A DNA stretch of 64,000 bases, taken from positions 16,265 through 80,264 of the IMG/VR virus record IMGVR_UViG_3300047409_000726; one strand, 5' to 3'. This document shows, one piece after another, positions 18,034-60,059 of the stretch (position 1 is the stretch's first letter; the number at the start of each line of letters is the position of its first letter). A program made the translations under genes and the position numbers. This DNA comes from a virus. The notes beneath the pieces were generated by a model. It was not told the origin of the DNA. It saw only the letters and a program-made list of their open reading frames with translations, and did no database searches.

Positions 18034-18194
18034 CACGTCGAAGCGACATGATGCTCGAGGACATCTTCGGGTGCGACCACACGCCGGAGACGCCTATCGT
18101 CGACGATTCGGGTGAGATTCTCTACTGGGTGTGTCGTTGTGGGAAGATGCATTCGGTACCTGAGAAAACCGCTCAAGAAAAGGAAGAGCCTTGA
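18030..18194 (+). CDS. Small protein with CRCG motif (54 aa)
   Basis: ATGA overlap. An acidic 54-aa protein; GCDHTPETP and YWVCRCGKMH give four possible metal ligands. Unknown. Confidence 0.62.
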   Translation: MTRRSDMMLEDIFGCDHTPETPIVDDSGEILYWVCRCGKMHSVPEKTAQEKEEP

Positions 18195-18544
18195 AAGTAA
18201 TCTACTTGGCACACCCACTCAGCGCCCCCACCCAAGAGGGCATCGACGAAAACCGCCGCAGGGCCGCGCTGTGGGCCGCGTGGGCACTCACGGTGTGCGG
18301 CGTTTCGCCGGTCTGCTCATGGATCGTGCTCACGGGCGTGCTCCCTGAGACGTCCGAGAACCGCAGGCTCGGGCTCGAAGCCGACAAGGCGCAGGTCGCG
18401 CTCTGTGATGAGCTCTGGTACGTCGGCGGGCGCATCTCGAGCGGCATGCGTGAGGAAGCCACCGTCGCGAAGAAGATCGTCGACTTGACGCACTTGGGAG
18501 AACGTCCGCCCAACGGTGTCCTGACGATGCTCGAACAGCAATGA
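18191..18544 (+). CDS. DUF4406-like (nucleoside 2-deoxyribosyltransferase fold) protein, copy 1
   Basis: 117 aa, TTG start (TTGA overlap). VIYLAHPLSAPTQEGIDENR, then CSWIVLTGVLPETSENRRLG and EATVAKKIVDLTH, match the short nucleoside 2-deoxyribosyltransferase-like family common in phages. Family members cleave or exchange N-glycosidic bonds of deoxynucleosides; the role here is inferred as nucleotide salvage. A paralogue is encoded at 19514-19975, and both precede a ribbon-helix-helix gene. Confidence 0.75.
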   Translation: MKVIYLAHPLSAPTQEGIDENRRRAALWAAWALTVCGVSPVCSWIVLTGVLPETSENRRLGLEADKAQVALCDELWYVGGRISSGMREEATVAKKIVDLTHLGERPPNGVLTMLEQQ

Positions 18545-18816
18545 CGATTGATCTCTCCACCCGCCCCCTAACCGACGGCGAGCTCGTTCGGCTTAAGGCG
18601 CGCCTACGTGAGTTCCGGTTCCAAGCGACGGCAGCCCGAGCGCTAGGCGTGTCCGTTGAGACGATCCAGGGCGCGCTCGAGGGGAAACGGGTGCAGTGCG
18701 CGAAGCGAGAAAAACTTCTTGCCAACCCCCTGTCACTCGCTGTACCTTGCGTGCTGCATGAGAAAACTGAAGAAGCCGCCGCGTCAAAAACAGATTCGGA
18801 TGGGCGAAGACCTTGA
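18541..18816 (+). CDS. Helix-turn-helix protein
   Basis: 91 aa, ATGA overlap. FQATAARALGVSVETIQGALEGKRV is a compact HTH of the type found in small phage regulators. Its C-terminal 20 codons overlap the start of the next gene. Possible early regulator. Confidence 0.68.
   Translation: MTIDLSTRPLTDGELVRLKARLREFRFQATAARALGVSVETIQGALEGKRVQCAKREKLLANPLSLAVPCVLHEKTEEAAASKTDSDGRRP
18719..18746 (+). promoter_or_regulatory. Candidate promoter of RHH gene, copy 1
   Basis: TTGCCA (18719-18724), 16 bp, TGTACC (18741-18746), ATG 39 bp from the start of TTGCCA. The same arrangement (TTGCCA, 16 bp, TATCGT, ATG at 38 bp) precedes the paralogue at 19999, so it was either kept after duplication or is functional. 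It lies inside the HTH coding sequence. Confidence 0.35.
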
Positions 18817-18943
18817 AGCGCAGATTCATGAGTACCGAAAGATGCTCACCGACCAGACTGGAATCGAGGCTACGTTTTCTGACGCGACGCGAGCGCTTAT
18901 CCGGAAGGGCCTCAAGACTTTGGGGATCAAGGCGTTCCGATGA
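18758..18943 (+). CDS. Ribbon-helix-helix-like regulator, copy 1
   Basis: 61 aa, overlapping the HTH gene by 59 bp. KQIRMGEDLEAQIHEYRKML, then TFSDATRALIRKGLKTLGI, has the RHH/CopG pattern: a beta strand, two helices, and the S.A.R.LI.KGL ending. Close relative of 19999-20214. Probably DNA-binding and possibly autoregulated. Confidence 0.68.
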   Translation: MRKLKKPPRQKQIRMGEDLEAQIHEYRKMLTDQTGIEATFSDATRALIRKGLKTLGIKAFR

Positions 18944-19179: not shown

Positions 19180-19517
19180 GCGACACCGAGAACAAGTTGC
19201 GGCTGTTTGCGAAGATCCTCTGCGAGCTGGCCTGGGATCAAGATCCGCCGAGCGGCTACTTCGAGACTTCTCTCGATGACGCTCTCACGGAGCACAACAT
19301 GACCCGCGACGGCCTAGACGCACTCGCCAAAGAGCTCGGGTTCGAGTGGCGATGCCAGGACGAGCCGGATGATCCGAAAACTCTTTGCAAAGCTTGCGGT
19401 GGCGGCTTCTTCGGCAGTCGGACCCGTAACCTCTGTTGCTGCGCGGAGGGCGCGAAAGTCGATCGTGGGGCCGAGCTTCGAGAGAAGCTTCGACGATTGG
19501 AAGGAGCCCTCATATGA
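19176..19517 (+). CDS. Zinc-binding small protein (113 aa)
   Basis: ATGA overlap. Helical N-terminus, then LCKACGGGFFGSRTRNLCCC, a probable zinc knuckle, and a charged C-terminal helix. Unknown. Confidence 0.65.
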   Translation: MSDTENKLRLFAKILCELAWDQDPPSGYFETSLDDALTEHNMTRDGLDALAKELGFEWRCQDEPDDPKTLCKACGGGFFGSRTRNLCCCAEGAKVDRGAELREKLRRLEGALI

Positions 19518-19975
19518 TCGCCGCCTATCTTGCCCACCAACTTTCCGCTCTGACCCGTGAGGGTATCGAGCAGAACCGTCGCAACGCCGCGAAGTGGGCC
19601 GCGTGGCTCTGGCGGCAAGGCTTCTCGGTCGAGTGTTCGTGGATCGTCTGCACCGGCGAGCTTGAGGAGACACCGGAGAACCGCGAGCTTGGGCTCAAGT
19701 CTGATTGCGAGCAGGTTCGTCGATGCGACGTCATGGTCCTCTGCGGCCCGCGCATCTCGAGAGGCATGCTCATCGAGGCCGGCGCGGCGAAGCTCATCGT
19801 CGACTTCACGCATCTCGGGCTGTCGCTTCCGAGCGAAGATCTCGAGTGGTGCGACGGCATGCCGGCCACGCTCGCCCACGTCGATGAGATGGCTGCGGCG
19901 TACAATCCGAGCGGGCCGGAGCTCGTGCAAAGCGATCAGCTCGAGATCGATAAAAACAGGTTGCCATTTACGTAG
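19514..19975 (+). CDS. DUF4406-like (nucleoside 2-deoxyribosyltransferase fold) protein, copy 2
   Basis: 153 aa, ATGA overlap. IAAYLAHQLSALTREGIEQN, ECSWIVCTGELEETPENREL, then RISRGMLIEAGAAKLIVDFT align with 18191-18544 along their length; this copy has about 35 extra C-terminal residues. Possible role in deoxynucleoside turnover; active-site assignment not made. Confidence 0.75.
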   Translation: MIAAYLAHQLSALTREGIEQNRRNAAKWAAWLWRQGFSVECSWIVCTGELEETPENRELGLKSDCEQVRRCDVMVLCGPRISRGMLIEAGAAKLIVDFTHLGLSLPSEDLEWCDGMPATLAHVDEMAAAYNPSGPELVQSDQLEIDKNRLPFT

Positions 19976-19988
19976 ACCGTTGTATCGT
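19961..19988 (+). promoter_or_regulatory. Candidate promoter of RHH gene, copy 2
   Basis: TTGCCA (19961-19966), 16 bp, TATCGT (19983-19988), then ATG 19999. The leader would be only a few bases. Matches the arrangement upstream of the copy-1 RHH gene. Confidence 0.4.
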
Positions 19989-19998
19989 TTCGTAGCTC

Positions 19999-20214
19999 AT
20001 GCCATCACCGTCGAAGACCAAAAAACACTGGAAGCAGGGGTTTAAGGTCAAGCACCACTCGCTCGGAGCACCCGTGCAGCTTCGTCTGAGCGAAGATCTC
20101 AAAACCCGTATTCTCATGTACCAGGTGCAGGTGTTCAACAAGCTCGGCGTCGAGATGTCTTTCTCTGTGGCTTTGCGTTCGCTCATCGAGAAGGGACTAG
20201 AGGCTTCCCAATGA
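19999..20214 (+). CDS. Ribbon-helix-helix-like regulator, copy 2
   Basis: 71 aa. Basic N-terminus (PSKTKKHWKQGFKVKHH), then VQLRLSEDLKTRILMYQVQ and SFSVALRSLIEKGLEASQ, an RHH pattern paralogous to 18758-18943. Downstream of a DUF4406-like gene as in copy 1, so the pair was duplicated together. Confidence 0.68.
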   Translation: MPSPSKTKKHWKQGFKVKHHSLGAPVQLRLSEDLKTRILMYQVQVFNKLGVEMSFSVALRSLIEKGLEASQ

Positions 20215-23860: not shown

Positions 23861-24084
23861 GCCTCAGGTGCTCCGGGGATCTTCCGGTTCGTGATTATTT
23901 TGAGCGCGATCGAGAGCAGCGGGCCCTCGATGTGTTTCGGTACCAAGATGCCGAGTTCGCGCTGTGCCCGATCAAGCGCAGCGCCGAATGTTAGGTTGTT
24001 GTCGGCCGTGAGAATGTCGATGACCCTCTCGAGCACCGGTGCGCAGTGTCGCGCGTCGCGTAGCGCTTCTTCGACGGCTGTCAC
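23857..24084 (-). CDS. Small helical protein (75 aa)
   Basis: GTG 24084 overlaps the upstream TAG by one base. AVEEALRDARHCAPVLERVI, then NNLTFGAALDRAQRELGILV. Unknown. Confidence 0.6.
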   Translation of the reverse strand: MTAVEEALRDARHCAPVLERVIDILTADNNLTFGAALDRAQRELGILVPKHIEGPLLSIALKIITNRKIPGAPEA

Positions 24085-24578
24085 TAGTCGTCCCCGTTGA
24101 ACAACACGACCTGCGCAGCCTGCGCGCAGGCGTCCTGAAGCGATTCGCCTTGAAAGAACCCCTTCACTTCGTAGCCGTCGTTGGAGAGGCTTGCCTCGAA
24201 CATCTTGATCTCTCGCTTGCCTTCGGCGTTGACGCCCATCTCGATGGATCGGACGCCGGCCTCGCGTGCACGGAGCCACCGGTCGAGCGCTTCGAAGATC
24301 CGCACAGCTCCCTCGCCCTCGGCTTGGCGTATCTCGGCTTCTCGTGACTCGACCTGCGCGCGTACGGGCACGATGGTGACCGTTTTCATACGGAAGATGA
24401 GCTTACACGCTAGGTCGAGGTAGGCGCTCTCAGGGTTCGCTCGAACGTATAGCTCGTCGATCTCGTTGATGGTGTCGCGGAGCGCTTCTGCGAGCTCGTG
24501 AATCACGTCCTCGGACGTCATGGGAGCGGGGCGAGGGGGCGAGGAGTGTTTCGAGCGGGTAAGCGGGGCGTCGTTCAT
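24084..24578 (-). CDS. Phage protein of unknown function (164 aa)
   Basis: Helical N-terminal half (EDVIHELAEALRDTINEIDE), then EGAVRIFEALDRWLRAREAG. Start supported by AAAGGAACCCAAG directly upstream; that ribosome site lies in one of the interspersed repeats of 24579-25078. Unknown. Confidence 0.7.
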   Translation of the reverse strand: MNDAPLTRSKHSSPPRPAPMTSEDVIHELAEALRDTINEIDELYVRANPESAYLDLACKLIFRMKTVTIVPVRAQVESREAEIRQAEGEGAVRIFEALDRWLRAREAGVRSIEMGVNAEGKREIKMFEASLSNDGYEVKGFFQGESLQDACAQAAQVVLFNGDD

Positions 24579-25888: not shown

Positions 25889-26434
25889 TTAGGTGAACGA
25901 CCTTCCTCTCTCGCCGATGGCGTTCGCGAAGAGTGCAGCAACGACGCCGACGAACAGGCCGCCGATGTGGGCACCGACACTGACGTCGCCACCGTTGCCG
26001 GTTAGTGCCTGCCAAGTGCTGACAGCGCAAAAGGCGAAAGCGAATCCGATGAATCGGCGGTCGACCGCTACGGAGTACGTGACCAGGCCGCAGACAGCCC
26101 CGGAGGCGCCTACCATCGGGATTGAAGAGCCTGAAGCTACGATAATGTGGAGAGCGGCTCCGGCGACCGCTGCGAGGGCGTAGAGGCAGAGGAACCGAGC
26201 GCCCCCGATGACCCTCTCGACCAGGCTGCCGAAAACGGCCAAAAAGGCCATGTTACAGCCCAGGTGAACGAGGGTCCTAGGGTCGTGCAGGAAGGAGTAG
26301 GTGAGGAGCGAGCCCAGGCCCGGATGGGCCGGAACTAGGCCGAATTTCTCGCAGACCGGCATCCCGCCACTCGAGAGCTCGAGGGCGTAAACGGCCGCGT
26401 TCAGCGTCACGAGAAGGAGGGTCACGAGGGGCAT
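25889..26434 (-). CDS. Rhomboid-family intramembrane serine protease
   Basis: 181 aa, about six hydrophobic helices. Motifs: HLGCNMAFL (57-65, the HxxxN/M helix), catalytic GASGAVCG (Ser111) and GAHIGGLFVG (catalytic His156). Cleaves transmembrane segments near helix-destabilising residues; rare in phages. It is divergent from a plus operon, with a shared dyad between them. Possible substrates are the virion proteins with C-terminal transmembrane signals in 47-58 kb; host membrane proteins are the alternative. Confidence 0.9.
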   Translation of the reverse strand: MPLVTLLLVTLNAAVYALELSSGGMPVCEKFGLVPAHPGLGSLLTYSFLHDPRTLVHLGCNMAFLAVFGSLVERVIGGARFLCLYALAAVAGAALHIIVASGSSIPMVGASGAVCGLVTYSVAVDRRFIGFAFAFCAVSTWQALTGNGGDVSVGAHIGGLFVGVVAALFANAIGERGRSFT

Positions 26435-26449
26435 ATGGGGTAGACGGAT

Positions 26450-26521
26450 ACCATACGAGGGTATTCAAGGTCAATCATTCTTTAGACGGCTGTTGACGTT
26501 GAATACCCGGCGTGGTAGGGT
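26450..26521. promoter_or_regulatory. Divergent promoters with a 16-bp operator-like inverted repeat
   Basis: Inverted repeat GGGTATTCAAGGTCAA (26459-26474) / TTGACGTTGAATACCC (26493-26508), 15 of 16 positions matching. The plus half supplies -35 TTGACG (26493-26498), then 17 bp and -10 TAGGGT (26516-26521) for the 26557 operon. The minus half supplies TTGACC (26474-26469) and TATGGTA (from 26455) for the rhomboid gene, with a short 13-bp spacer. One regulator could control both directions. Confidence 0.6.
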
Positions 26522-26556
26522 CCGTCTGCTCTGCCATGACCTTCACAGGAGACCCA

Positions 26557-26781
26557 ATGCCCAAACGCCCAAACGGTCGCTATTCGGGCGTCGAACCGAC
26601 CGGCACCCCCGCGGCGGTCGACCGGGCGCTCAAGAAGAACTCGAGGGACGACATGCGGGGCTACGACACGGACGCCCACGCTATCGCGAAGGTGCTCGTT
26701 CGCCACTACGGCGACGAGGCCGATGCGGTGCTCAAGCGCACGTTGGAGCTCCTTGGGGACGCACGGAGAACGAAGCGATGA
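26557..26781 (+). CDS. Small protein of unknown function (74 aa)
   Basis: ATG 26557 with ACAGGAGACCC upstream; earlier in-frame starts at 26512 and 26536 overlap the promoter. Basic N-terminus PKRPNGRYSG, then a helical body (AHAIAKVLVRHYGDEADAVL). First gene of the operon, so possibly regulatory. Confidence 0.65.
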   Translation: MPKRPNGRYSGVEPTGTPAAVDRALKKNSRDDMRGYDTDAHAIAKVLVRHYGDEADAVLKRTLELLGDARRTKR

Positions 26782-46976: not shown

Positions 46977-47627
46977 GTGCGCGTCATAGACCTCACTGGG
47001 CAACGGTTCGGGAGACTTCGCGTTCTCGGGCGAGTCGGTAGTCTACGAGGCGCGTTGTGGGAATGTTTATGCGATCCGGAATTTGGTGGTTGCGGCAACG
47101 TTACGCACGTTTGTTCCGGTGACCTTCGACGCAAACGTCCTGTGCGTTCGTGCGGTTGCAATAGAGGAGGGTACGGAAGATTTTCCGCCACTCATGGGCA
47201 TACGGTGGGAGAGCTTCGACTACACGGCGGATCTCCTGAGTATTGTTGTTGGCAATCGATGCTCCAACGGTGCAAAAACAAAAAAGCCCCAAGCTGGCGG
47301 CTGTACGGAGGGCGCGGTATTCGTGTTCACCAGGCTTGGATAGAAAGTTTTGAAGCGTTCTTGGAGTACATGGGCCCGAGACCGTCGATCGCATATTCTG
47401 TAGATCGGTTTCCGAACCAGAACGGAAACTACGAACCAGGGAACGTGAGATGGGCTACCGCGAAGCAGCAAGGGCGCAATACACGCTCTTGCAAACTAAC
47501 CGAAACGGACGCGGCTTTCGTTCGGCACTGGTGTGCTAGAGGATTCAGGGTCAAAGACATATCTGAAGCGTTCGGCGTTACCACGTCAACCATATCTGCG
47601 GTCAAATCTGGGAAAACTTGGGCATGA
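46977..47627 (+). CDS. HNH-type homing endonuclease-like protein
   Basis: 216 aa, GTG start. GQRFGRLRVLGRV and WECLCDPEFGGCGNVTHVCS are a NUMOD/AP2-like DNA-binding lead. YGGRGIRVHQAWIESFEAFL, YSVDRFPNQNGNYEPGNVRW and ATAKQQGRN are the nuclease core. A C-terminal HTH (VKDISEAFGVTTSTISAVKS) aids site choice. Free-standing mobile gene inserted into the structural operon; its stop overlaps the next ATG. Confidence 0.85.
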   Translation: MRVIDLTGQRFGRLRVLGRVGSLRGALWECLCDPEFGGCGNVTHVCSGDLRRKRPVRSCGCNRGGYGRFSATHGHTVGELRLHGGSPEYCCWQSMLQRCKNKKAPSWRLYGGRGIRVHQAWIESFEAFLEYMGPRPSIAYSVDRFPNQNGNYEPGNVRWATAKQQGRNTRSCKLTETDAAFVRHWCARGFRVKDISEAFGVTTSTISAVKSGKTWA

Positions 47628-48442
47628 AAACCCATACTGTTCAAGCAAATGAAACACCCGCGTCGATTGCAATTTTTTACGCCGGGTGCCCAAAATGTTC
47701 AGCGGATCTCATCAAATCGAATCCGCACAAAGAGTCGATCACGCACCCCAACGGGTACAAAACCTTCTCGTCGTTGTTAGCCGGAGAAAAACTGAACCTT
47801 CCGGAAAAATGGAGCAACGGAGAGTTAGATCGTCGTCCGCCGGTGTACTTCGCGGCATTGCCGTACCACGACGGCGTGACACCTTCGACGCTCGGTGATG
47901 CCGCGGCTGGTGTACTCGCCGACTACGCGACCATCGACGCGATCGTCGCTCAGATCGGTGCACTGCCGCAGATGAACGATCAGGAGTTCGCGACGACCGC
48001 GACGCTCCTCGGCAACATGATCGATCAAGCGGTCACGCAAGCTGGCTCGGTACCTCAAGCACAAGACGCTGGTGCCGCCGCAGAATGGGTGCGAGGACGC
48101 GCGCTCCAGATGGCAGGATCAATCATCAACAACGACACGGCTGCCGTCGCCGAAGCACGATCAGAGATCCAGAACGTGCTGCTCACCGGGCTGGACAATG
48201 CGCGCGGAGCGCTTCAAACGTACTACGCGCAGGTCACTCCGGCGCCTGCGCCAGCGCCGACACCGCATGCGGCGCCGCGTCCGTCGCCGCCGGATCTGCT
48301 TCCGACGCCAACGCCGCCGGCTCCTACGCCCGAACCTGGCCTCAGCACAGGCGATATGTTCGGGTACGGATTGCTCGTTGCGAGCGTCGCGGGCGGAACG
48401 ATCTACCTTGCCACTCGTCCGAGGCGTCGGAGACGTCGATGA
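47624..48442 (+). CDS. LysM-like virion protein with LSTG-TM-polyArg end
   Basis: 272 aa, ATG 47624 (ATGA overlap). Residues 1-65 look LysM-like (THTVQANETPASIAIFYAGC, LLAGEKLNLPEKW). Helical middle (residues about 90-195), Pro/Ala linker, then LSTGDMFGYGLLVASVAGGT, the transmembrane helix, and YLATRPRRRRRR at the C-terminus. First of four proteins with this terminal signal. Probably binds peptidoglycan while anchored in a membrane by its end. Confidence 0.75.
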   Translation: MKTHTVQANETPASIAIFYAGCPKCSADLIKSNPHKESITHPNGYKTFSSLLAGEKLNLPEKWSNGELDRRPPVYFAALPYHDGVTPSTLGDAAAGVLADYATIDAIVAQIGALPQMNDQEFATTATLLGNMIDQAVTQAGSVPQAQDAGAAAEWVRGRALQMAGSIINNDTAAVAEARSEIQNVLLTGLDNARGALQTYYAQVTPAPAPAPTPHAAPRPSPPDLLPTPTPPAPTPEPGLSTGDMFGYGLLVASVAGGTIYLATRPRRRRRR

Positions 48443-50082
48443 TCCAGGACAAGCCTGCGCCGAACGTTCAGACGGATGTGCGTCCTCATCCTGGTGGCAA
48501 GAAGGGCGCGAAACTTTCGCTCGAGGAGGTCGGCAAGCGCGCATGGGCCGCGCGCATGAGCCCGAGGCTTCGTGCGTGGGCGACGCAGGTGCTCGACAAG
48601 GCCGGCGTTTCGCGCGGCACGCGAAGGCAAAAAGCAAAAGCGATCCTCGATGAGTATCGCGCGAAAGTTCCGTACATCGCCGATCCAGTGATGGGCGAGT
48701 TCATCGCGCATCCGGACCAAACACTCTGTCTCGACGAAGCGGGGCTCTGCATCGTGGGCGGCGACTGTTTTCCGGAGGGGACGTTGCTACTGCGGGACGA
48801 TTTCGAATTCGTACCGATCGAGCAGATCAAAAAAGGAGATCGCATCTGGGGGAAGGACAAATGGTCGATCGTCACCGAAAAATGGGCGAAAGGTAAGTTG
48901 CCCGTCGACGCCATCGAACTGTCCACCGGATCGACGATGTATCTGACGCACAATCACAAAGTCTACGTGGGCGCGTGTGAACACGGACGAGGATGCAATT
49001 TGGATCGGTGTTCATACGCCAACAAGCGGAACGTGTTCGATAGAATTTACGTTGAAGACCTGCGCGAAGAAGACGTGCTGCTTCAACCGGAACGCATTTC
49101 GTTCGGCGTCCAAGAAACAGATCCAGACCGCATGTATGTGGAAGCGCTCGCCCTGGCCGACGGTTGGACGAAAGCCAGCAAAAATCCGGATCTGCCTCAC
49201 ATTTGTTTCTACGTCGCGGGCCGAGACGGAATGCGCAAAGAGGCGCAAAAACACGAAGTCGTCAAAATCTGCGAACGATTGGGGATCGAGACGTTGTGGC
49301 ATCCACGATACGTCGTCGTGAAAGATCGAGAGTGGGCGTCGAAAATCGCGGAACTAGGGTCTCGAGCGCGGTTCAAACACCTAGAGACGATCAATTTGAA
49401 CGAGCCTGCGGCCAAAGCTGCGTTGCGCGGCCTAATGGCCGACAGCACGGCGAACACTTCCGGAAGTGCGCGCACGTACTCAACGACTAGCCGAATGATG
49501 ATGCTTCAGGTGCGCGTGCTTCATCGAATGTTCGGCAAGATGACGAGCGTCCGTATGTTGACCCCGGAACAACACGGAGGCGCGGGGAAATTTCCGCTTT
49601 GGCGCGTCGGACAACGAGAAAAGCAAGGACTCTCTGTTGTGGTCCGTTCGATCGAAAGAGCTGTGCGAGAAGTTCCGTGCTGGGACATCTCCACGGATGA
49701 TCACTACATCTACTTGCCTGAACACGACGTAACGGTTTCGAATTGCGACGACGCCGCAGTTACGATTTCGGCGGCAGTGATGTCGATCGGAATTCCTGCG
49801 AAGATCGTAGGGAGCTCGCACCGACCGCCCGCCGACGTGCCGACGCACGTGTACATGGCGTTCGAAGATGATCTCGGTGAGTGGGTTCGCATGGACGGGA
49901 CGACGCGGCTTCCTGTCGGAAAGGCGCCACCGAGACTCCGCGAGTGGTGGATCGAGCCAGGCAAAGACGCGAAAGCGAAAGGCGAAGGGGACTTCGTCGG
50001 GATGAGTGGCACGCTCGAGGGACCGTCATCACGGCACGCGACGATTCGCCTTGCCGATCTGCTCTATCCGACGATTCGCTAG
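48439..50082 (+). CDS. Transglutaminase-like enzyme interrupted by an intein
   Basis: 547 aa, ATGA overlap. N-extein residues 1-109 (basic start, YIADPVMGEFIAHPDQTLCL, IVGGD). Intein residues 110-435. C-extein 436-547 begins CDDAAVTISAAVMSIGIPAK, then PTHVYMAF (H470) and WVRMDGTT (D486), giving the Cys-His-Asp triad of phage transglutaminase-like proteins. Splicing would join GGD to CDD and so create the active site; the mature protein would be 221 aa. Possible capsid cross-linking or peptidoglycan/amide chemistry. Confidence 0.88.
   Translation: MIQDKPAPNVQTDVRPHPGGKKGAKLSLEEVGKRAWAARMSPRLRAWATQVLDKAGVSRGTRRQKAKAILDEYRAKVPYIADPVMGEFIAHPDQTLCLDEAGLCIVGGDCFPEGTLLLRDDFEFVPIEQIKKGDRIWGKDKWSIVTEKWAKGKLPVDAIELSTGSTMYLTHNHKVYVGACEHGRGCNLDRCSYANKRNVFDRIYVEDLREEDVLLQPERISFGVQETDPDRMYVEALALADGWTKASKNPDLPHICFYVAGRDGMRKEAQKHEVVKICERLGIETLWHPRYVVVKDREWASKIAELGSRARFKHLETINLNEPAAKAALRGLMADSTANTSGSARTYSTTSRMMMLQVRVLHRMFGKMTSVRMLTPEQHGGAGKFPLWRVGQREKQGLSVVVRSIERAVREVPCWDISTDDHYIYLPEHDVTVSNCDDAAVTISAAVMSIGIPAKIVGSSHRPPADVPTHVYMAFEDDLGEWVRMDGTTRLPVGKAPPRLREWWIEPGKDAKAKGEGDFVGMSGTLEGPSSRHATIRLADLLYPTIR
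48766..49743 (+). mobile_element. Intein with degenerate LAGLIDADG endonuclease
   Basis: 326 codons, Cys1 (CFPEGTLLL) to Asn326 (TVSN) with Cys+1. Block A: CFPEGT...VPIEQIKKGDRIWG. Block B: STGSTMYLTHNHKVYV (TxxH). LAGLIDADG-like blocks YVEALALADGWT and LRGLMADSTANTSG, then SRMMMLQVRVLHRMFG. Block F: CWDISTDDHYIYLPEHDVTV. The penultimate residue is Ser instead of His, a tolerated variant in some inteins. The insertion point is the catalytic cysteine of the host enzyme. Confidence 0.9.
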
Positions 50083-50338: not shown

Positions 50339-52030
50339 GTGGGTCTTTATGACGATCGATTGGCCGACCTCAGTGAAGCGCGACGAAACACGTCGCGTGT
50401 CCGTCGATCGATCTTTCCGAGACCTTTCACGCGCCCCGCGCCGGTCGCCGCTCCAAAAAAGCGAAAGCCGAAGAAGCCTCCTACGAAGGTGCAGACGCTC
50501 CTCTTCAGCCGCAGCGCAGGTTGGACGGCGAGCAAAGCCAAGGCGTGGGCAAAGTCCCACGGCTACAAGTACGGGAAGGTGCACGTCACCGACCAGTACA
50601 TCCGCATTCGTCAATTCAGCCCGAAAGGGAAAGCGACGATGCGGACCATCCCGTTCGGTACGAAAGGCATCCGTGCCGTAGTTGCACGAGAAAGTACGAG
50701 CACAAGAGGTCCCATGGCACGAACTGTTCAAGCACGTAGGCGTCGGCGTCGGAAGGTCAAAGCAGAGGCACCGAAGCGTAGGCGACGGCGTCGGGCGAGC
50801 TCGCGCAAGCGCACGAGCCGTCGTAGGCGTCGGCGTGCAGTGAAGGTCGAAGCGAAGAGGACTCGTCGGCGTCGTCGTGTCGCCGCCGTCGCGGCTCCGC
50901 GTCGCAGGCGTCGCCGTCGCGTGTCGGCGTGGCGTCGCGACAAGGAAGGCCACTCGAAGGCGGCCCGCAAGGGTTGGCGTCGGCGCAAGAAGAGCTCGAC
51001 TCGTCGGCGTCGCCGTCGGGTGCGCGCAGCCGTGGCCGAGGCGCCGCGTAGGCGAAGGCGTCGCCGTGTCGCGGCAGCAGTCGCTACTCCGCGCAGGCGT
51101 CGTCGACGTCGGATGCACGCGGCTCCCGTGATGCAAGCGCGTCGGCGTCGGCACCACATGCGTGCGAGCGGTCCCGGAATGAGCGGCGGCGAGCTCGCGC
51201 TCGGCGTGCTCTTCGGCGGCGTCGGCTTCGCCGCTGCGGACGCACTCGATCGCTTCCTCGCGACGTACGACCCGTCGGCCGCCGAACGTCCGAAGGACAA
51301 GTTCACGTCGGACGGCACGGGAACTTTGGCGAATACTCTGAACGTTGCGAATCGTCCGGGCCTAGTCCGTCTCGGAGCCGGCATCGGCGTGACCGCGGTT
51401 CCCGCGATCTCGTCGATGTACATCCGGCACGCGGGACTCAGGAGTTCGCTCCAGGGCATGTCGATCGGTGCAGGCGTCAGCCTGTTCAAGTCGATCTGGA
51501 ACAACTTCCTGATGCCGATGCTCATCGGCAAGGATACGTCGCCGACGACTTTGCAGAAGTCGTACATCGCACGGCTCTACCCGGCCGAGGTTGCTGCATC
51601 GATCAACATGCGTGCAATCGACGCAGCGAAGAAGGCAGGGCAGACGCCAGCGATGAACGTGTCCTCGGGATCTTCGGGTCTCTCGGGTCCGGACGTCGGT
51701 CCGCACGCGCTCTCGGGCGACAGCCCGTACCCCGACGCGGTGCAATCGCTTCGTCGGCGCGCGGGCGTCAGCGACGAGATGTACCCCGACGCGGCATCGG
51801 AGCTTCGGCGCAGGACCGGCATGAGCGGCCCGTCGAGCTACCCGGACGCGGCGGACGTGCTCCGTCGTCGTGCGGGCGTCGGATACGAACCCGCGGGTCC
51901 GCCCGAAGGCGGCACCGGGCCGCAGGCGGAACCCCACAAGGATCCCGCGTGCGGCTGCGTCGGAACTCCCGGCGCTCGGTACGCGATGTTCCTTGGCGAC
52001 GACATGAGCGAGTCAGACAACACCGGCTGA
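50339..52030 (+). CDS. Protamine-like arginine-rich membrane virion protein
   Basis: 563 aa, GTG start. Residues about 45-115 form a small domain, FSRSAGWTASKAKAWAKSHG, DQYIRIRQFSPKGKATMRTI, GIRAVVAR, similar to one found in phage head or protease proteins. Residues 125-275 consist of about ten blocks of RRRRRR separated by Ala/Val linkers, protamine- or H1-like. Residues 280-450 include hydrophobic helices (GELALGVLFGGVGFAAADAL, LVRLGAGIGVTAVPAISS). The C-terminal repeats SYPDAADVLRRRAGV occur three times. Likely condenses genome DNA at a membrane or capsid surface. Confidence 0.78.
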   Translation: MGLYDDRLADLSEARRNTSRVRRSIFPRPFTRPAPVAAPKKRKPKKPPTKVQTLLFSRSAGWTASKAKAWAKSHGYKYGKVHVTDQYIRIRQFSPKGKATMRTIPFGTKGIRAVVARESTSTRGPMARTVQARRRRRRKVKAEAPKRRRRRRASSRKRTSRRRRRRAVKVEAKRTRRRRRVAAVAAPRRRRRRRVSAWRRDKEGHSKAARKGWRRRKKSSTRRRRRRVRAAVAEAPRRRRRRRVAAAVATPRRRRRRRMHAAPVMQARRRRHHMRASGPGMSGGELALGVLFGGVGFAAADALDRFLATYDPSAAERPKDKFTSDGTGTLANTLNVANRPGLVRLGAGIGVTAVPAISSMYIRHAGLRSSLQGMSIGAGVSLFKSIWNNFLMPMLIGKDTSPTTLQKSYIARLYPAEVAASINMRAIDAAKKAGQTPAMNVSSGSSGLSGPDVGPHALSGDSPYPDAVQSLRRRAGVSDEMYPDAASELRRRTGMSGPSSYPDAADVLRRRAGVGYEPAGPPEGGTGPQAEPHKDPACGCVGTPGARYAMFLGDDMSESDNTG

Positions 52031-52144: not shown

Positions 52145-53431
52145 ATGGCCAAGCAAGCAAGAGACAAGAGAAGCATTCTCGGGCGCAAGATTCACGCTTT
52201 CGAACGAGACAACCGGTACGCACGTCTGCCATTCGGTCGCGGTGTCGATCCGACCACCATCGGTGTCGGTGAAGCAATCGGACTCGCCGAGAAGTGCATT
52301 CGATGCAGCTTCGGCAACATCCCCGTGATCGAAGAGGTCGTGTGGACGATCCCCATCCCGCTCACGGCGGAAGAGGCGCTCTCGACCCTCGGTGACGTGA
52401 TCAACCTGCTCTCGGGTTCCTCGAGCGTCCCCGGCGTCGCGTCGATCGACTCGACGTTCCTCATCAACGGCATCCTCCAGACGGACATCCTCGCGCAAGG
52501 CGTGGGCGTGCACGTGTTCTGCGAGCCGCTGTCGTTCTCGACGATCGGCAACGCCTTCACGGCGCCTGCCACGACCGTCGCGCCGCCCCCGAGCCCGGAC
52601 GTCTTCACGACGAACGATCTCGCGAACGGTGCGTTCCCGGATACGGTCGAAGTGGACGGTTCGAACTTCACCCCGGCGGTGTTCGAGTTCGGCGGCCCGG
52701 TGTGGCGCGCGGGCTGGAACTTCATCAACGCCTACCAGTTCCAGTGGAAGACCTCGCAGCGTGAACTCGTGCTGAACGAGCTCGCGGCGGACGTCAGCTA
52801 CTTCGGCTCCTTCGCGGACGCCGAAGCGGCGGGCACGAGCGAGGTTCCCGTCATCGAGTTCGTCGCTCAGGTCAATGCGACCTACCGCTCGAAGGGCTCC
52901 GGGACGATCTTCCTCCCGGCGAACTTCCGCCGCGTGGGAAGCGTTACCACCGCAAGCGTAACCGCAAACATCGGCATCTTCCACCCGACGCGCGATTTCG
53001 ATCTCGCGCCGGTGACCTGGGGCGGTCTCAGGTGGCAGGGCTACGGTTGCCGCGGTCAGATGTACCGCCCGATCGAGAGCCCGTGCTTCCTCGAGCGCGG
53101 CATCCCCATCGGCATGTTCTTCCAGGTGCAAGACGCCGTGCACCAGGCGCTCATGCTCGAAGCCGTCACGATCAACAACGAGCCTCTCGGCACGAACGTC
53201 AGCATCGACGAGAACCTCTCGACCACGACTGGCGGCGGCGCCCAGGTCATGGCCGAGCAGACACTCGACACGGTTCCGCTACTCGCGCCGCAAACCGTCA
53301 ACACCGAGCGTCAGACCTTCAAGGGCGGCATCTTGAAGATCGGCATCAAGATCAAGGGCTGGGAAATGCCCGGCGGCTGGAAGGCGTTCTGCGCCGACAA
53401 CCTGCCGCAGCTCGTTTCGAAGTCTGCCTGA
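52145..53431 (+). CDS. Major virion protein candidate (428 aa, beta-rich)
   Basis: ATG 52145 with ACAGGAGAAAAG. Basic N-terminus (MAKQARDKRSILGRKIHAFE), then an all-beta body with VIEEVVWTIPIPLTAEEALS, WRAGWNFINAYQFQWKTSQR, FVAQVNATYRSKGSGTIFLP, PTRDFDLAPVTWGGLRWQGY, IKIKGWEMPGGW. No HK97 features. Flanked by two strong hairpins with its own ribosome site, as expected for a highly made protein. Best capsid candidate; jelly-roll or spike are the alternatives. Confidence 0.6.
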   Translation: MAKQARDKRSILGRKIHAFERDNRYARLPFGRGVDPTTIGVGEAIGLAEKCIRCSFGNIPVIEEVVWTIPIPLTAEEALSTLGDVINLLSGSSSVPGVASIDSTFLINGILQTDILAQGVGVHVFCEPLSFSTIGNAFTAPATTVAPPPSPDVFTTNDLANGAFPDTVEVDGSNFTPAVFEFGGPVWRAGWNFINAYQFQWKTSQRELVLNELAADVSYFGSFADAEAAGTSEVPVIEFVAQVNATYRSKGSGTIFLPANFRRVGSVTTASVTANIGIFHPTRDFDLAPVTWGGLRWQGYGCRGQMYRPIESPCFLERGIPIGMFFQVQDAVHQALMLEAVTINNEPLGTNVSIDENLSTTTGGGAQVMAEQTLDTVPLLAPQTVNTERQTFKGGILKIGIKIKGWEMPGGWKAFCADNLPQLVSKSA

Positions 53432-54150: not shown

Positions 54151-55047
54151 ATGGGCGCCAAAACCGACAACGTAATCCGACTCCAAAAACACCCAGACGG
54201 TGTCGCGGCTGGGGTGCGTTCGGTTCTGAACTCGGGTCGATACGAGCTCGTTACAGGAGGGCCGAACGCCGAGTTCGGTTTCATCGGGAGCGACCCTTAC
54301 GAGACCAACTCCGGAACCGGTCTCATCGTCCCCGCGACGCCCAGCGCCTGGATCGACAACGCCCGCTACCTCCTGGTGCTCGCTCGGGCTCGATTCGGTC
54401 ACGGTGAGCAGAGCTCGGACAAGTGCGGCGTGCGCCTCGTCGGCATTCGACAGTACGCCGAGCTCATCGCACGGATCCCTGCGCGTACGTGCCCGCCGCT
54501 GAACACCGAAGTGGGCCCCGCTACCGGTGCGACCGTCGTTTTCCGCAAAGAGATCACGAGCCCGCTCTGGCACTTTCCAGACGGTGACATCTCCTGGCAC
54601 GTGATGGTCGTGAACCGCGTGCAGCGCGACACGCGAAACCCGGCGAACAACGACGGCTTCATTTACCAAGACGCGATCTCGCCGGCACTCCTCTACCAAG
54701 TCGCGGCGCCGTACTCGCCCCCGAACGGCGGGCGTCCTTGGGGGCGTCCCATCGGCGCGTCGCTCGGCAACATGCACGATCTTCGCTACCCGTGGCGCAC
54801 CCCGCGGAGTGAGCGAGTACTCGACATCCCGATCCCCGCGCCGTGCGATGTCATCTTTTTCGCGAGCGTTCGCCAGAACGATCCGCGGGCGACGAATCCG
54901 ACGCTTTGCGACACCGTCGACTGCTCGGCACTCACAGCGCTCGGTCCCGAAGATCAGTTCATGGTCGCGTACAACGAGTTCGCTCAGTACGGCGCCGTCG
55001 CGGGGGCACTCGTGTTCGACGAGAACCTGGGAGAGGACGTGCCATGA
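54151..55047 (+). CDS. Virion protein candidate (298 aa)
   Basis: Beta-rich, no known domain: GTGLIVPATPSAWIDNARYL, VVFRKEITSPLWHFPDGDIS, WHVMVVNRVQRDTRN, ERVLDIPIPAPCDVIFFASV. Six cysteines. Starts 13 bp after the 201-aa gene and is followed by coupled membrane-protein genes. Possible penton, vertex or spike-base protein. Confidence 0.62.
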   Translation: MGAKTDNVIRLQKHPDGVAAGVRSVLNSGRYELVTGGPNAEFGFIGSDPYETNSGTGLIVPATPSAWIDNARYLLVLARARFGHGEQSSDKCGVRLVGIRQYAELIARIPARTCPPLNTEVGPATGATVVFRKEITSPLWHFPDGDISWHVMVVNRVQRDTRNPANNDGFIYQDAISPALLYQVAAPYSPPNGGRPWGRPIGASLGNMHDLRYPWRTPRSERVLDIPIPAPCDVIFFASVRQNDPRATNPTLCDTVDCSALTALGPEDQFMVAYNEFAQYGAVAGALVFDENLGEDVP

Positions 55048-55286
55048 GCACGCGCCTCGGAGTAGGGCTGGCGGCTGGACTCGGTTGCGCCGCGGGGGGT
55101 GTGATCGGCATTGTTGCCGGCCCCGCTATCTCGCCGAATATGACCAAGGACGATGCCGCGATCGCCGCGGGAGCGATCGGCGCAATTCTCGGCTCCGTGA
55201 TCCTGGCGACGGTGGCGGCGAGCGATCCGCCGAAGCAGATACAGACCGGCGTGAGCGGTGCGTTTCACAACCCGGAGTTCCCATGA
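55044..55286 (+). CDS. Gly-zipper two-TM protein ending HNPEFP (80 aa)
   Basis: ATGA overlap. GVGLAAGLGCAAGGVIGIVA and AAIAAGAIGAILGSVILATV are Gly/Ala-rich helices; C-terminus TGVSGAFHNPEFP. Tandem paralogue of 55283-55525. Likely a virion membrane protein or pore. Confidence 0.72.
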   Translation: MSTRLGVGLAAGLGCAAGGVIGIVAGPAISPNMTKDDAAIAAGAIGAILGSVILATVAASDPPKQIQTGVSGAFHNPEFP

Positions 55287-55525
55287 TCAACAACGGCCTC
55301 ACCATGATCGCGCTCGCCGGCATCGGCGGCATGATTCCTGGTGCCATCGGCGCGGCCGCCGCCGAAGGAAATCACCCGGTGCTGAGAGGCGCTCTCGTGA
55401 CGGGGATCGCCAACGTTGTTTTGACCGGTCTCTACATCGTTGCGGTCAACACCGCAGACCAGGAGCGGCTCACACAAGGGATGAACGGTCTCTCAGGCGC
55501 TCTCCACAACCCGAGGTTTCCATGA
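55283..55525 (+). CDS. Gly-zipper two-TM protein ending HNPRFP (80 aa)
   Basis: ATGA overlap. GLTMIALAGIGGMIPGAIGA and GALVTGIANVVLTGLYIVAV; C-terminus NGLSGALHNPRFP. Same length, topology and end as the preceding gene, hence a tandem duplication. Confidence 0.72.
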   Translation: MINNGLTMIALAGIGGMIPGAIGAAAAEGNHPVLRGALVTGIANVVLTGLYIVAVNTADQERLTQGMNGLSGALHNPRFP

Positions 55526-55944
55526 TGGCACTAGCCTTCAATGGATTTTCTCTCGGAGAAGATCAGCAAACGTTTCAGGCCGGCGATGTTTGGGTGATTG
55601 ATGTCACGTCCGACAAGCCCGTCACGCCTGAGCAATTTTTCGCTTTTGTCGCGAAGGTTCAGCCCAAAGCGAGTATGCCGATCAAAGTCTTGTCGTTCAT
55701 GCCGATCGATCAGACTCACTTTCAAGCGGTCGTGCAGATGCAATCGACAGGATCTTTCAAAGGCGCCGGTCACACGGATATGGTCGATGGTGTTGTGTTC
55801 ACTGTCACGTCTGCGCACCCGCAATCGGAGACAAGCAAAGGTCTTTCAACCGGCGCAATAGCCGGAATCGTCGCCGCAGGTGCAGCCGCTTTTGGCGGCA
55901 TCGTCTACCTCGCAACTCGCAAACCTAGGAGACGACATCCATGA
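55522..55944 (+). CDS. Virion-type protein with LSTG-TM-basic end (140 aa)
   Basis: ATGA overlap. An alpha/beta N-domain of about 100 aa (FQAGDVWVIDVTSDKPVTPE, HFQAVVQMQSTGSFKGAG), then LSTGAIAGIVAAGAAAFGGI as transmembrane helix and VYLATRKPRRRHP. Shares the terminal signal with 47624, 55941 and 56688. Confidence 0.72.
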   Translation: MMALAFNGFSLGEDQQTFQAGDVWVIDVTSDKPVTPEQFFAFVAKVQPKASMPIKVLSFMPIDQTHFQAVVQMQSTGSFKGAGHTDMVDGVVFTVTSAHPQSETSKGLSTGAIAGIVAAGAAAFGGIVYLATRKPRRRHP

Positions 55945-56660
55945 CCCCAGCGCAAGCAAGCGGACACCCGAATTTCGTCACGGACGTTCCTGTTCAAGGT
56001 CCGGTCGACGAAGGCATGCGCGCGGCGGATTGTTTTCACGCTCAACGAAAGCTACCGGCGCAGCCCGCGTGCGTCGATTGCAAAGGACCAATTCCAATGT
56101 GGGCTCAGCATTCACTCTCGGCAACTTCATCCGGCGCACGCGGCCCCTACTCCGGGATCGGCGAGCGACTCTCGTTCGGCACCGCGGGTGTGAAAGGCTT
56201 CGCTCTCGAAGGCCCAGGCGATCCAGAAGTTTGGAGCCACCTCTCGGCGGCGCAACAGACGTGGATCGGGGACACGCTCTCGAAGCTGAACGGAATCATC
56301 GTGAAGGCCACCGGCACGACGTGCCCGACGTGGGCTCCCGCGATCGATCGCGCGAGCGGTTGCTTTCAGGGTTGGTTCAACGGCGCCAAGTTCGGATTCA
56401 CGAAGGCGAACGGCGCGCCGCTCGTGCTTCGTACCGACGGCGTGTTCGACCAAGACACGCTCGACGCGCTTCGCACCGTCGCAGCGCTGAACCCCAAGAA
56501 CTTTACGACGGCGTTCCCAGGGACCGAGCTACCTGGCACGGGCGTGACTCAGAAGAAGCTTTCCACCGGCGCAATAGCCGGCATCGCGACGGCCGGCGCC
56601 GCGGCGATCGGCACGGTCGCGTACCTCGCCACTCGCAAGAAGAGCCGGAGACGCCGCTAA
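55941..56660 (+). CDS. Peptidoglycan-binding-like protein with LSTG-TM-basic end (239 aa)
   Basis: ATGA overlap. Residues about 60-200 carry WSHLSAAQQTWIGDTLSKLN and LRTDGVFDQDTLDALRTVAA, a PG_binding_1-like unit (DG.f...T..Al). Then LSTGAIAGIATAGAAAIGTV as transmembrane helix and AYLATRKKSRRRR. Probably engages the cell wall during entry while anchored at its end. Confidence 0.74.
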   Translation: MTPAQASGHPNFVTDVPVQGPVDEGMRAADCFHAQRKLPAQPACVDCKGPIPMWAQHSLSATSSGARGPYSGIGERLSFGTAGVKGFALEGPGDPEVWSHLSAAQQTWIGDTLSKLNGIIVKATGTTCPTWAPAIDRASGCFQGWFNGAKFGFTKANGAPLVLRTDGVFDQDTLDALRTVAALNPKNFTTAFPGTELPGTGVTQKKLSTGAIAGIATAGAAAIGTVAYLATRKKSRRRR

Positions 56661-56687
56661 GACCGCAACTCGTAGGAGACGACGAAG

Positions 56688-58247
56688 ATGCTGTATCGAG
56701 TGAAAACCGGCGAGACCCCCGCGATCATCGCGCGCACGTACGGCGTGCCGTTCGATGCACTCATCAACGCCAACCCGAGGAAGCCAACGACCATCGTTTC
56801 CAACGGACGCGGCCCTGTCCGTACTTGGCGGGAGCTTTTGGTGAACGAGGAGATCATCGTTCCGGTTGGCGGACTCGTTGGCGCTCCCGCAGACGACGTC
56901 GTGAGCATTCTCGTTTCGGCGGGCGGTCCGTGTCTCAAAGCAAACGCGGGCTACGTCTGCCAGATCCAGAGCATCCTCGGGCTCAAGGTCGACGGAAAGT
57001 GGGGAAACGACACCGCGGCTGCGGTTCGCGCTCTCGTACCGGGCGCGCCAGGCGCGTGCTCTCCGACGCCGAGCTGGTGGGTGAGAGGTGTGAGCGCATG
57101 TCCCGCGGGCGCCGTCGCTCCGTCGCCCGCGCCTGCTCCGTCGTCCGGCCTCTCCTCGGCGGCAAACGCGGCGCTCGCTGCGCTCAACGCGGATTCGAAC
57201 TACTGCGCAAGCGTCTCGAGAGTCGGATCGGCCGTCAACAGCGCTATCCACAACTTCAAAGCGGCGTGGAACGCTTCGCATCCGTCAACTCCTGTTCCGA
57301 TCGGCACCGGCAAGTACGAGCCGTCCGTTGCAGATGCGCTCTCGACAGCGCTCGGCGGGCTTCCCGTGCCCCCCGGTTGCGGCGCCACGCCTGCGCCTTC
57401 GCCGACTCCGATCGTCACGCCAACACCGACGCCCGCTCCGCGCGGAGCCGTTCCGTCCGCCGTGCTCGCGCTCCTAGGAATCAATCCGTGCGATCCGTCA
57501 AGCGCATCGGACGTGTGCGCGGCTCAGCGCGCGCTCGGTGTGTCTCCAGACGGAAAGTACGGAGTGGACACGGCGACAGCCGCACGTCGAGTGCTCCCGG
57601 AAGCGCCCCCTGGGTGCTCGCCTCGCCCCTCGTGGTGGGCGCCAAAGGGCCAAACGAATTGCGGAGGCGCAGCCGTACCTCCGCCGCAACCGGCACCGAT
57701 CCCGCCGCCGGCTCCGACACCTGGGCCCGCGCCCACGCCGTCACCTACAGCAGCGGCCCCGGCAGCCGTCTTGATGCTCGCCACGATCAATCCCTGCTTG
57801 CAGGCGAACGTCGAAGTGGTCCGGAACGCGCAACGCGCGCTCGGTCTCACACCGGATGGCAAGTACGGAAACGATACGATGAGCGCCGCTCGCCGGCTCG
57901 GCGTGAGTGTGCCGGCGGCTTGTAGCCCCGCGCCCATGTGGTGGGGCGCGAAGGGTGTACCAGCGCCGCCCGGACCGCCGGCACCTGTTCCGGGTCCGAC
58001 GCCAGGCCCTTCTCCGGCACCGGGTCCGATCGTCCAGACAGAGAAGAAGATCTCGACTGGCGCAATCGTCGCGGGCGCGATCGGCGTCGCGGCGCTCGTC
58101 GGGCTTACCGTCGTCGCACTGTCCGGCAAGAAGAAGCATCACCGCCGTACGCGCAAAGGCGCGCACAGGCCGAAGCGGAAATCGCACGGGCATCACCACA
58201 AGCCGCATCACAAGGCCCATCGCAAATCGAAACGGAGAAGCAGATGA
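56688..58247 (+). CDS. LysM plus triple peptidoglycan-binding protein with TM and His/Lys/Arg tail
   Basis: 519 aa. LysM (LYRVKTGETPAIIARTYGVP, 1-60). Three PG_binding_1-like units, ILGLKVDGKWGNDTAAAVRA, ALGVSPDGKYGVDTATAARR and ALGLTPDGKYGNDTMSAARR, each followed by CSPxPxWW, joined by Pro/Ala linkers. Then ISTGAIVAGAIGVAALVGLT as transmembrane helix and a 45-residue tail of Lys, His and Arg. A membrane-anchored wall-binding protein; the tail may touch nucleic acid. Confidence 0.82.
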   Translation: MLYRVKTGETPAIIARTYGVPFDALINANPRKPTTIVSNGRGPVRTWRELLVNEEIIVPVGGLVGAPADDVVSILVSAGGPCLKANAGYVCQIQSILGLKVDGKWGNDTAAAVRALVPGAPGACSPTPSWWVRGVSACPAGAVAPSPAPAPSSGLSSAANAALAALNADSNYCASVSRVGSAVNSAIHNFKAAWNASHPSTPVPIGTGKYEPSVADALSTALGGLPVPPGCGATPAPSPTPIVTPTPTPAPRGAVPSAVLALLGINPCDPSSASDVCAAQRALGVSPDGKYGVDTATAARRVLPEAPPGCSPRPSWWAPKGQTNCGGAAVPPPQPAPIPPPAPTPGPAPTPSPTAAAPAAVLMLATINPCLQANVEVVRNAQRALGLTPDGKYGNDTMSAARRLGVSVPAACSPAPMWWGAKGVPAPPGPPAPVPGPTPGPSPAPGPIVQTEKKISTGAIVAGAIGVAALVGLTVVALSGKKKHHRRTRKGAHRPKRKSHGHHHKPHHKAHRKSKRRSR

Positions 58248-59035: not shown

Positions 59036-59542
59036 ATGGGCGAGTTCAGAATCGGACGCAGGTTCGCACAGCACACCTACCCCGACACACCAAGAGGGGG
59101 AGGGGCGCTGGCGTTCGCGCGAAACTTCGCGATGGGTCCGGCTACGCCCACCACCATCACGACCGGCGGCGTTCAGGTTCCGTGGGATTTCATCGAAAGC
59201 GGTGCCCCCTCCGGCGTCAACGTGCCGATCACACCGCGTGTCACCGGGCGAATGCTCTTCTCCGGCGTCGTTCAGGTCACGAACAACGACGACGCGCCTG
59301 TGACCGTACAGGTGCAGATTCAAGTGAACGATGCCACGGCACTCGTTCCACTTGTTCAAGAGACGGTCGACGCGAACGGCGAAGCAGCTATCGCTTTCGA
59401 GATTATGTACATCGCGTCGCTTCCGGTCGGCGTCACCGCTCAGATCCAATTACTGGTCACGTCTACAGCAGACGTCGACGTCGTTTTGAGCACGGACAAC
59501 TCAACGCTAGAAATCGAAGAAAAATCGTTCGCGACCGGGTGA
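59036..59542 (+). CDS. Tagged jelly-roll-like surface protein B (168 aa)
   Basis: Tag MGEFRIGRRFAQHTYPDTPR, LARNFAMGP-type segment (FARNFAMGP), TTGGVQVPWDFIESG, then VPITPRVTGRMLFSGVVQVT and STDNSTLEIEEKSF. Strongly similar to 59547-60059. Confidence 0.74.
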   Translation: MGEFRIGRRFAQHTYPDTPRGGGALAFARNFAMGPATPTTITTGGVQVPWDFIESGAPSGVNVPITPRVTGRMLFSGVVQVTNNDDAPVTVQVQIQVNDATALVPLVQETVDANGEAAIAFEIMYIASLPVGVTAQIQLLVTSTADVDVVLSTDNSTLEIEEKSFATG

Positions 59543-59546
59543 ACCC

Positions 59547-60059
59547 ATGGGTGAATTCAGAATCGGCCGCAAATACGCGCACCACTTCTACCCGGACACA
59601 CCACGGGGAGCGGGAGCGCTGTCGCTTGCGCGAAATTTCGCGATGGGCCCTGGGGATGCAACCGACGTCGTCACGTCCGGTGACGGTGGCACTCAGATCC
59701 CTTGGGATTTCATCGAGAGTGATGCCGCCCTAGGCGTCGACGCGCCGATCACCCCAAGAGTCACTGGGCAAATCCTTTTCAAAGGCGTGATCGTTTTCAA
59801 AAACAACTCACTGTCTCCGGTAAACGTGACGGCGCAAGTCGAGGTGAACGACTTGGCAATAGCGCCTCCGGTCGTTGAAGAGACAGTCGCAGCAAACGGG
59901 TTGGCCGCCGTACCTTTCGAAGTGCTCATCGATACCCCACTCGCCCTCGGCGTCACAGCGAACATACAAGTCATCGTGACCGCGTCGATAAACGATGCGA
60001 TCACGCTTACCGTGGACAGTTCGACCATCGAAATCGAAGAAGTTCCGTTTGCGGCGTGA
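59547..60059 (+). CDS. Tagged jelly-roll-like surface protein C (170 aa)
   Basis: Tag MGEFRIGRKYAHHFYPDTPR, LARNFAMGP, IPWDFIESD, then APITPRVTGQILFKGVIVFK and TVDSSTIEIEEVPF. Third of the paralogous set; duplicated tandem array of surface proteins. Confidence 0.74.
   Translation: MGEFRIGRKYAHHFYPDTPRGAGALSLARNFAMGPGDATDVVTSGDGGTQIPWDFIESDAALGVDAPITPRVTGQILFKGVIVFKNNSLSPVNVTAQVEVNDLAIAPPVVEETVAANGLAAVPFEVLIDTPLALGVTANIQVIVTASINDAITLTVDSSTIEIEEVPFAA

Follow-up and report, generated by a model that had tools for sequence, protein, structure and literature searches.

The window (the whole stretch of 64,000 nucleotides of viral DNA analysed here) carries an intact gene of a rhomboid intramembrane serine protease and, at a distance, four genes of proteins anchored by a C-terminal membrane helix, at whose edge lies a conserved motif that covaries with the presence of the enzyme among related phages. 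On the basis of these sequence comparisons we lean towards the view that the GlpG-like phage rhomboid is active and cuts the phage's own LSTG-TM proteins (those with an LSTG-type motif at the membrane helix) as its main substrates, which would free their wall-binding ectodomains. To our knowledge, most substrates of bacterial rhomboids have yet to be identified. In the present case a single compact genome holds the enzyme together with its likely substrates, the cut can be predicted to the exact bond, and relatives lacking the enzyme provide natural matched tails that look uncleavable; what a rhomboid does physiologically, and whether phage assembly, egress or entry includes a further, new step, thereby become directly testable.

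By every sequence and structure test run, the gene product is assigned to the rhomboid protease family. Its translation contains the complete motifs HLGCNM, GASGAVCG and GAHIGG, as the preliminary description had stated, and matches the Pfam Rhomboid model PF01694 (4e-19, 69.7 bits at a cut-off of 22.6 bits). Phage homologues share 40-72% identity with the window rhomboid, and the two catalytic and two oxyanion residues are invariant in 18/18 phage copies. Pairwise dN/dS values of about 0.2-0.43 indicate purifying selection. The AlphaFold (AF2) model, built from a 39-sequence alignment, displays six helices (pLDDT 89.6, pTM 0.86), and a PDB search with it returned GlpG of E. coli as the top match (E 3.8e-6, TM 0.77). 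Considering the unchanged active site, the dN/dS values and the structural match to GlpG, a chance origin of the gene is excluded, and the product is a real, constrained and probably active protease.

Exactly one rhomboid copy is present in the whole 80,264-bp record. In the phylogenetic tree the phage copies form a single clade (support 83/82), which is at most about 41% identical to its cellular matches, these being spread over scattered phyla, and is marked by the loop-1 signature ELxxGGxxxCxxxGLVP with the Cys kept in 17/18 copies. One contig (G002; 28% GC, rhomboid 29% identical) was set aside as unrelated, and a tblastn search of 50,697 cultured-phage records found neither the rhomboid nor the marker protein of the lineage (see the table). 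The rhomboid of a close relative, G001, is near identical to that of the window over the first ~75 residues and diverged over the remainder; the neighboring genes of the two are mostly 85-100% identical, suggesting possible recombination inside the rhomboid gene.

The source record (80.3 kb, with ends overlapping by 127 bp) is probably a complete circular phage genome. It carries genes for Prim-Pol, PolA, ThyX, dCMP deaminase and a methylase of the Dam type; no capsid, portal or terminase gene was recognisable in the structural block. The rhomboid slot is conserved beside two genes, whose products had zero Pfam matches, and lies ~20 kb away from the tail genes. The marker protein of the lineage is labelled 'MCP', and a capsid role for it is a guess: it had zero matches in Pfam, PHROG and PDB, its AlphaFold model reached a pLDDT of 29.7 only, and it was absent from the GTDB genomes searched.

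Table. Features of the window relevant to the rhomboid and its candidate substrates (vertical bar in a motif given as a slash: predicted cut)
Feature	Position	Strand	Description
Rhomboid intramembrane serine protease	25889..26434	(-)	181 aa; catalytic Ser111 (GASG) and His156 (GAHIGG); oxyanion His57/Asn61
Soluble conserved protein	24084..24578	(-)	164 aa; usually near the rhomboid in relatives (synteny); possible operon partner
Small conserved protein	26512..26781	(+)	divergent, upstream of the rhomboid; marker of the conserved slot
Lineage marker ('MCP')	52145..53431	(+)	best-conserved large protein of the structural block, 70-78% identity
Candidate substrate 1 (P0002)	47624..48442	(+)	LSTGDM tail, TM helix, Arg tail; ORF 47618-48442 in the preliminary description
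P4-P2' hexamer LSTG/DM, candidate 1	48341..48358	(+)	from translation; predicted cut after Gly
Candidate substrate 2 (P0003)	55522..55944	(+)	LSTGAI tail, TM helix, basic end; ORF 55258-55944, start probably ATG 55522
P4-P2' hexamer LSTG/AI, candidate 2	55843..55860	(+)
Candidate substrate 3 (P0004)	55941..56660	(+)	conserved Cys-containing domain, LSTGAI tail, TM helix, basic end
P4-P2' hexamer LSTG/AI, candidate 3	56559..56576	(+)
Candidate substrate 4	56688..58247	(+)	LysM and PG_binding_1 repeats, ISTGAI tail, TM helix, long Lys/Arg/His tail
P4-P2' hexamer ISTG/AI, candidate 4	58050..58067	(+)

Three of the candidate substrates had been pointed out earlier and proved real, and a fourth protein, reading ISTG, was found to end in the same tail. 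Common to all four are a linker, the six-residue motif, a Gly/Ala-rich helix and a basic end, and matches to the tail profile are confined to four orthologous groups, all of the structural block. Candidate 4 has Pfam-supported wall-binding domains (PG_binding_1, 2.6e-11; LysM, 1.3e-4); the N-terminus of P0002 is LysM-like by eye, with no Pfam score, and is followed by a Pro-rich linker. The basic C-terminal tails and the peptidoglycan-binding domains agree with a periplasmic N-terminus and a cytosolic C-terminus, from which the N-out/C-in topology is inferred; this topology is the weak point of the substrate idea, since a simple hydropathy check detected no signal peptide in most copies of the tail proteins.

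Mutagenesis of the AarA/TatA pair has defined cleavage by diverse rhomboids through a large hydrophobic residue at P4, a small one at P1 and a hydrophobic one at P2' (Strisovsky et al., 2009; PMC2941825). The corresponding motif [LIM]-x-x-[GAS]-x-[IMVL] stands at the N-terminal edge of the membrane helix in 36/37 tails of the phage proteins, with Leu/Ile/Met at P4 and Gly/Ala/Ser at P1 in 37/37 each, Ile/Met/Val/Leu at P2' in 36/37, and P2 and P1' variable. The pattern (BIGxxSMALLxBIG) is met by 36/37 tails at this one register and by at most 12/37 at any other, while about 8% would be expected by chance from shuffled helix composition. The letters LSTG as such are ruled out as the conserved signal, as IGVAGI, ISTAGM and MSAASM occur among the tails. 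Taken alone, the motif match is no more than suggestive, because the register was chosen post hoc and the tails share a common ancestry; besides, motif matches, even good ones, were cleaved in only 5/13 tests in P. stuartii (PMC2941825). P0002 of the window has Asp at P1', a residue that the TatA scan found disfavored at most positions (PMC2941825).

The preliminary description held that a rhomboid in relatives lacking every LSTG-TM protein would refute the connection, and proposed co-occurrence as a check. All five closed rhomboid-bearing genomes (G000, G003, G005, G007 and G023) possess LSTG-type tails, and the rhomboid contigs without such tails are fragments, as the entire structural block is missing from them. 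The refuting case was not encountered; simple co-occurrence, however, is uninformative, because the relatives found initially represent one lineage. Viral contigs were therefore searched with the marker protein, ignoring the rhomboid. This blind scan yielded 14 new contigs, two of which (G025 and G027) have the rhomboid and the others do not; those without it include the closed genome G028 (124.6 kb) and four further long contigs (three of 117-120 kb, one of 110 kb), whereas some shorter ones are fragments and hence uninformative on absence. In G032 both slot neighbors are present and the rhomboid between them is absent.

The tails of rhomboid-bearing phages, G025 and G027 included, read LSTGAM, ISTGAI, LSTGAV or ISTGSV, whereas orthologous tails from phages without the enzyme read LSTLAK, LSTPAK, LSLPMK, LSLYAK, LPMPMK, MSTGAK, WSSWTI or WSLGTV: P1 is changed to Leu, Pro, Tyr or Trp and P2' is usually Lys, while the membrane helix and often LST are kept. 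Counted at fixed register, with rhomboid-lacking tails that are impossible to place in register excluded, 29/30 tails conform in the presence of the rhomboid and 0/14 in its absence (3/14 if Trp is permitted at P4). Since the helix stays and LS/MS is retained in 9/14 of the rhomboid-lacking tails, the anchor is preserved and the determinants of cleavage disappear. Pro at P1, which is rejected by rhomboids, occurs in two rhomboid-lacking P0004 tail types besides that of G032. A register-free motif scan gave a weaker contrast (28/29 against 10/18; Fisher p 0.001 without correction for relatedness), because Gly/Ala-rich helices hold chance motifs. The MCP tree needs three switches between presence and absence of the rhomboid, and a five-protein tree, with a weak backbone, allows two to three; p values at the level of tips are consequently optimistic and tip counts exaggerate significance, as the independent switches number only 2-3. 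There are two exceptions: G023 has the rhomboid, yet its P0004 reads LSTGMK, and G010, a contig that is not closed, has conforming tails and the usual slot without the rhomboid. A CPBP/Rce1 protease as a replacement was searched for in the rhomboid-lacking relatives and not found. The covariation of P1 and P2' with enzyme presence supports the substrate idea.

The covariation could also be a phylogenetic coincidence, if the rhomboid-lacking lineages had inherited a divergent tail type along with a different gene set. One clade does hold six of the rhomboid-lacking genomes, and the few switches and the weak backbone leave room for such an explanation; we nevertheless regard it as very improbable, as G025, with its rhomboid and conforming tails, groups in the MCP tree (90/84) with G026, whose P1 residue is Val, and G032, the latter having no rhomboid and reading LSTPAK, and G034, which reads MSTGAK, is a separate lineage. 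A different reading takes the tail motif for a helix N-cap, i.e., a capping box Ser-x-x-Glu with a hydrophobic staple Leu...Ile with which the membrane helix begins, and has the rhomboid act on membrane proteins of the host, for instance receptors, targets of superinfection exclusion or envelope factors. An N-cap would fit Ser at P3, which is found in 34/37 tails, is more conserved than the residue at P4 or P1 and is no requirement for rhomboids, as well as Asp/Glu at P1' in three tails and the hydrophobic P4 and P2'. The location of the rhomboid far from the tail genes, amid non-structural ones, would suit a host target, and the authors of the DLP5 report class their phage rhomboid as a 'moron'. 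A cap, however, does not need a small P1 residue, and in relatives without the rhomboid LST and the helix often persist while the small P1 and the hydrophobic P2' are gone, which argues against a mere helix cap; we consider this reading rather unlikely.

The motif and covariation evidence would be identical if the phage rhomboid served quality control, clearing the host membrane of tail-anchored phage proteins that are in surplus and unassembled. This is a known bacterial role, GlpG and Rhom7 removing orphan HybA in Shigella (PMC7232013). Quality control alone, however, leaves the near-uniform motif across four tail families unexplained, and relatives without the rhomboid manage anyway, so we hold it to be improbable.

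Under the preferred reading, cleavage of the phage's own tail proteins by its rhomboid, the substrates would be cell-wall-binding proteins with one C-terminal membrane helix as an anchor and a basic cytoplasmic end; the cut would fall at the extracytoplasmic helix edge, at the P1/P1' bond of the motif, and the LysM/peptidoglycan-binding ectodomain would come free of the membrane in the course of virion assembly, egress or entry. Such release is probably an added control and not an obligate step, because sister phages keep uncut anchors. More tentatively, the rhomboid and the self-encoded, C-terminally anchored wall-binding proteins may co-evolve, the tails gaining or losing the cleavage site together with the enzyme, by which the phage would control the release of these proteins from a membrane. 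The original suggestion, processing of the LSTG-TM proteins by the rhomboid, is strengthened by the motif and by the loss of P1 and P2' where the enzyme is missing; LSTG as the conserved signal and the analogy to rhombosortases did not hold.

Comparison with known systems places the enzyme next to the GlpG/AarA-type rhomboids (MEROPS S54, PF01694), with which it shares the six-helix fold (TM 0.77-0.79 to GlpG), the Ser/His dyad, the HxxxN oxyanion motif and a single helical domain, its candidate substrates bearing the same P4/P1/P2' motif (PMC2941825); it differs in belonging to a phage-borne clade with its own Cys-containing loop 1. Providencia AarA cuts TatA at IATA/AF beside a single TM by the same motif logic (PMC2941825), but TatA is cleaved near its N-terminus, whereas the anchor of the window proteins is C-terminal. 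The rhombosortase/GlyGly-CTERM system (TIGR03902) resembles the phage pair in its many-to-one pairing and its tripartite C-terminal tails of motif, helix and basic cluster (PMC3237569); the phage tails, unlike those, have no GlyGly motif, are seen without a signal peptide in most copies and gave zero matches to NCBIfam CTERM models. Rhombosortase identity is ruled out for the window rhomboid by its TIGR03902 score of 19.4 bits (cut-off 84) and by the missing active-site His marker (SGMLH), the position of GlpG Tyr205 being occupied by Cys in the window copy and by Phe in most phage copies.

Rhomboids encoded by phages have been described before: the Stenotrophomonas phages DLP3 and DLP5 carry them (PMC7326821, PMC5834331), and further ones appear among BFVD matches. 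A search of an available literature collection found no description of a phage rhomboid paired with phage-encoded substrates; in the accessible parts of the literature such enzymes are only listed in genome annotations, once as a moron, and those of the DLP3 and DLP5 papers propose no rhomboid substrate (PMC7326821, PMC5834331). The DLP3 rhomboid lies outside the clade of the window enzyme, on a long branch.

Several other genes deserve mention. A transglutaminase-like protein (48439-50082, (+)) is seemingly split within GGDC/DDA by an intein-like Hint segment (CFPEGTLL...VTVSN), whose Pfam Hint score is under the cut-off. The structural-block protein at 50339-52030 (+) is Arg-rich, with many RRRRRR runs and hydrophobic segments, and is possibly a DNA-condensing or membrane virion protein. 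In G003 a HerA/FtsK-like ATPase was recognised by eye (54928-56991(-), GGKGMGKT; no Pfam support), with homologues in G005, G006, G011 and G014; such an ATPase, together with the lack of a detected terminase in the lineage, may reflect a virion of unusual type. An ice-binding-like protein (61794-63014, (+); PF11999, E 4.6e-45) may be an adhesin, and paralogous tandem pairs are formed by 18191-18943 with 19436-20214 and by 59036-59542 with 59547-60059.
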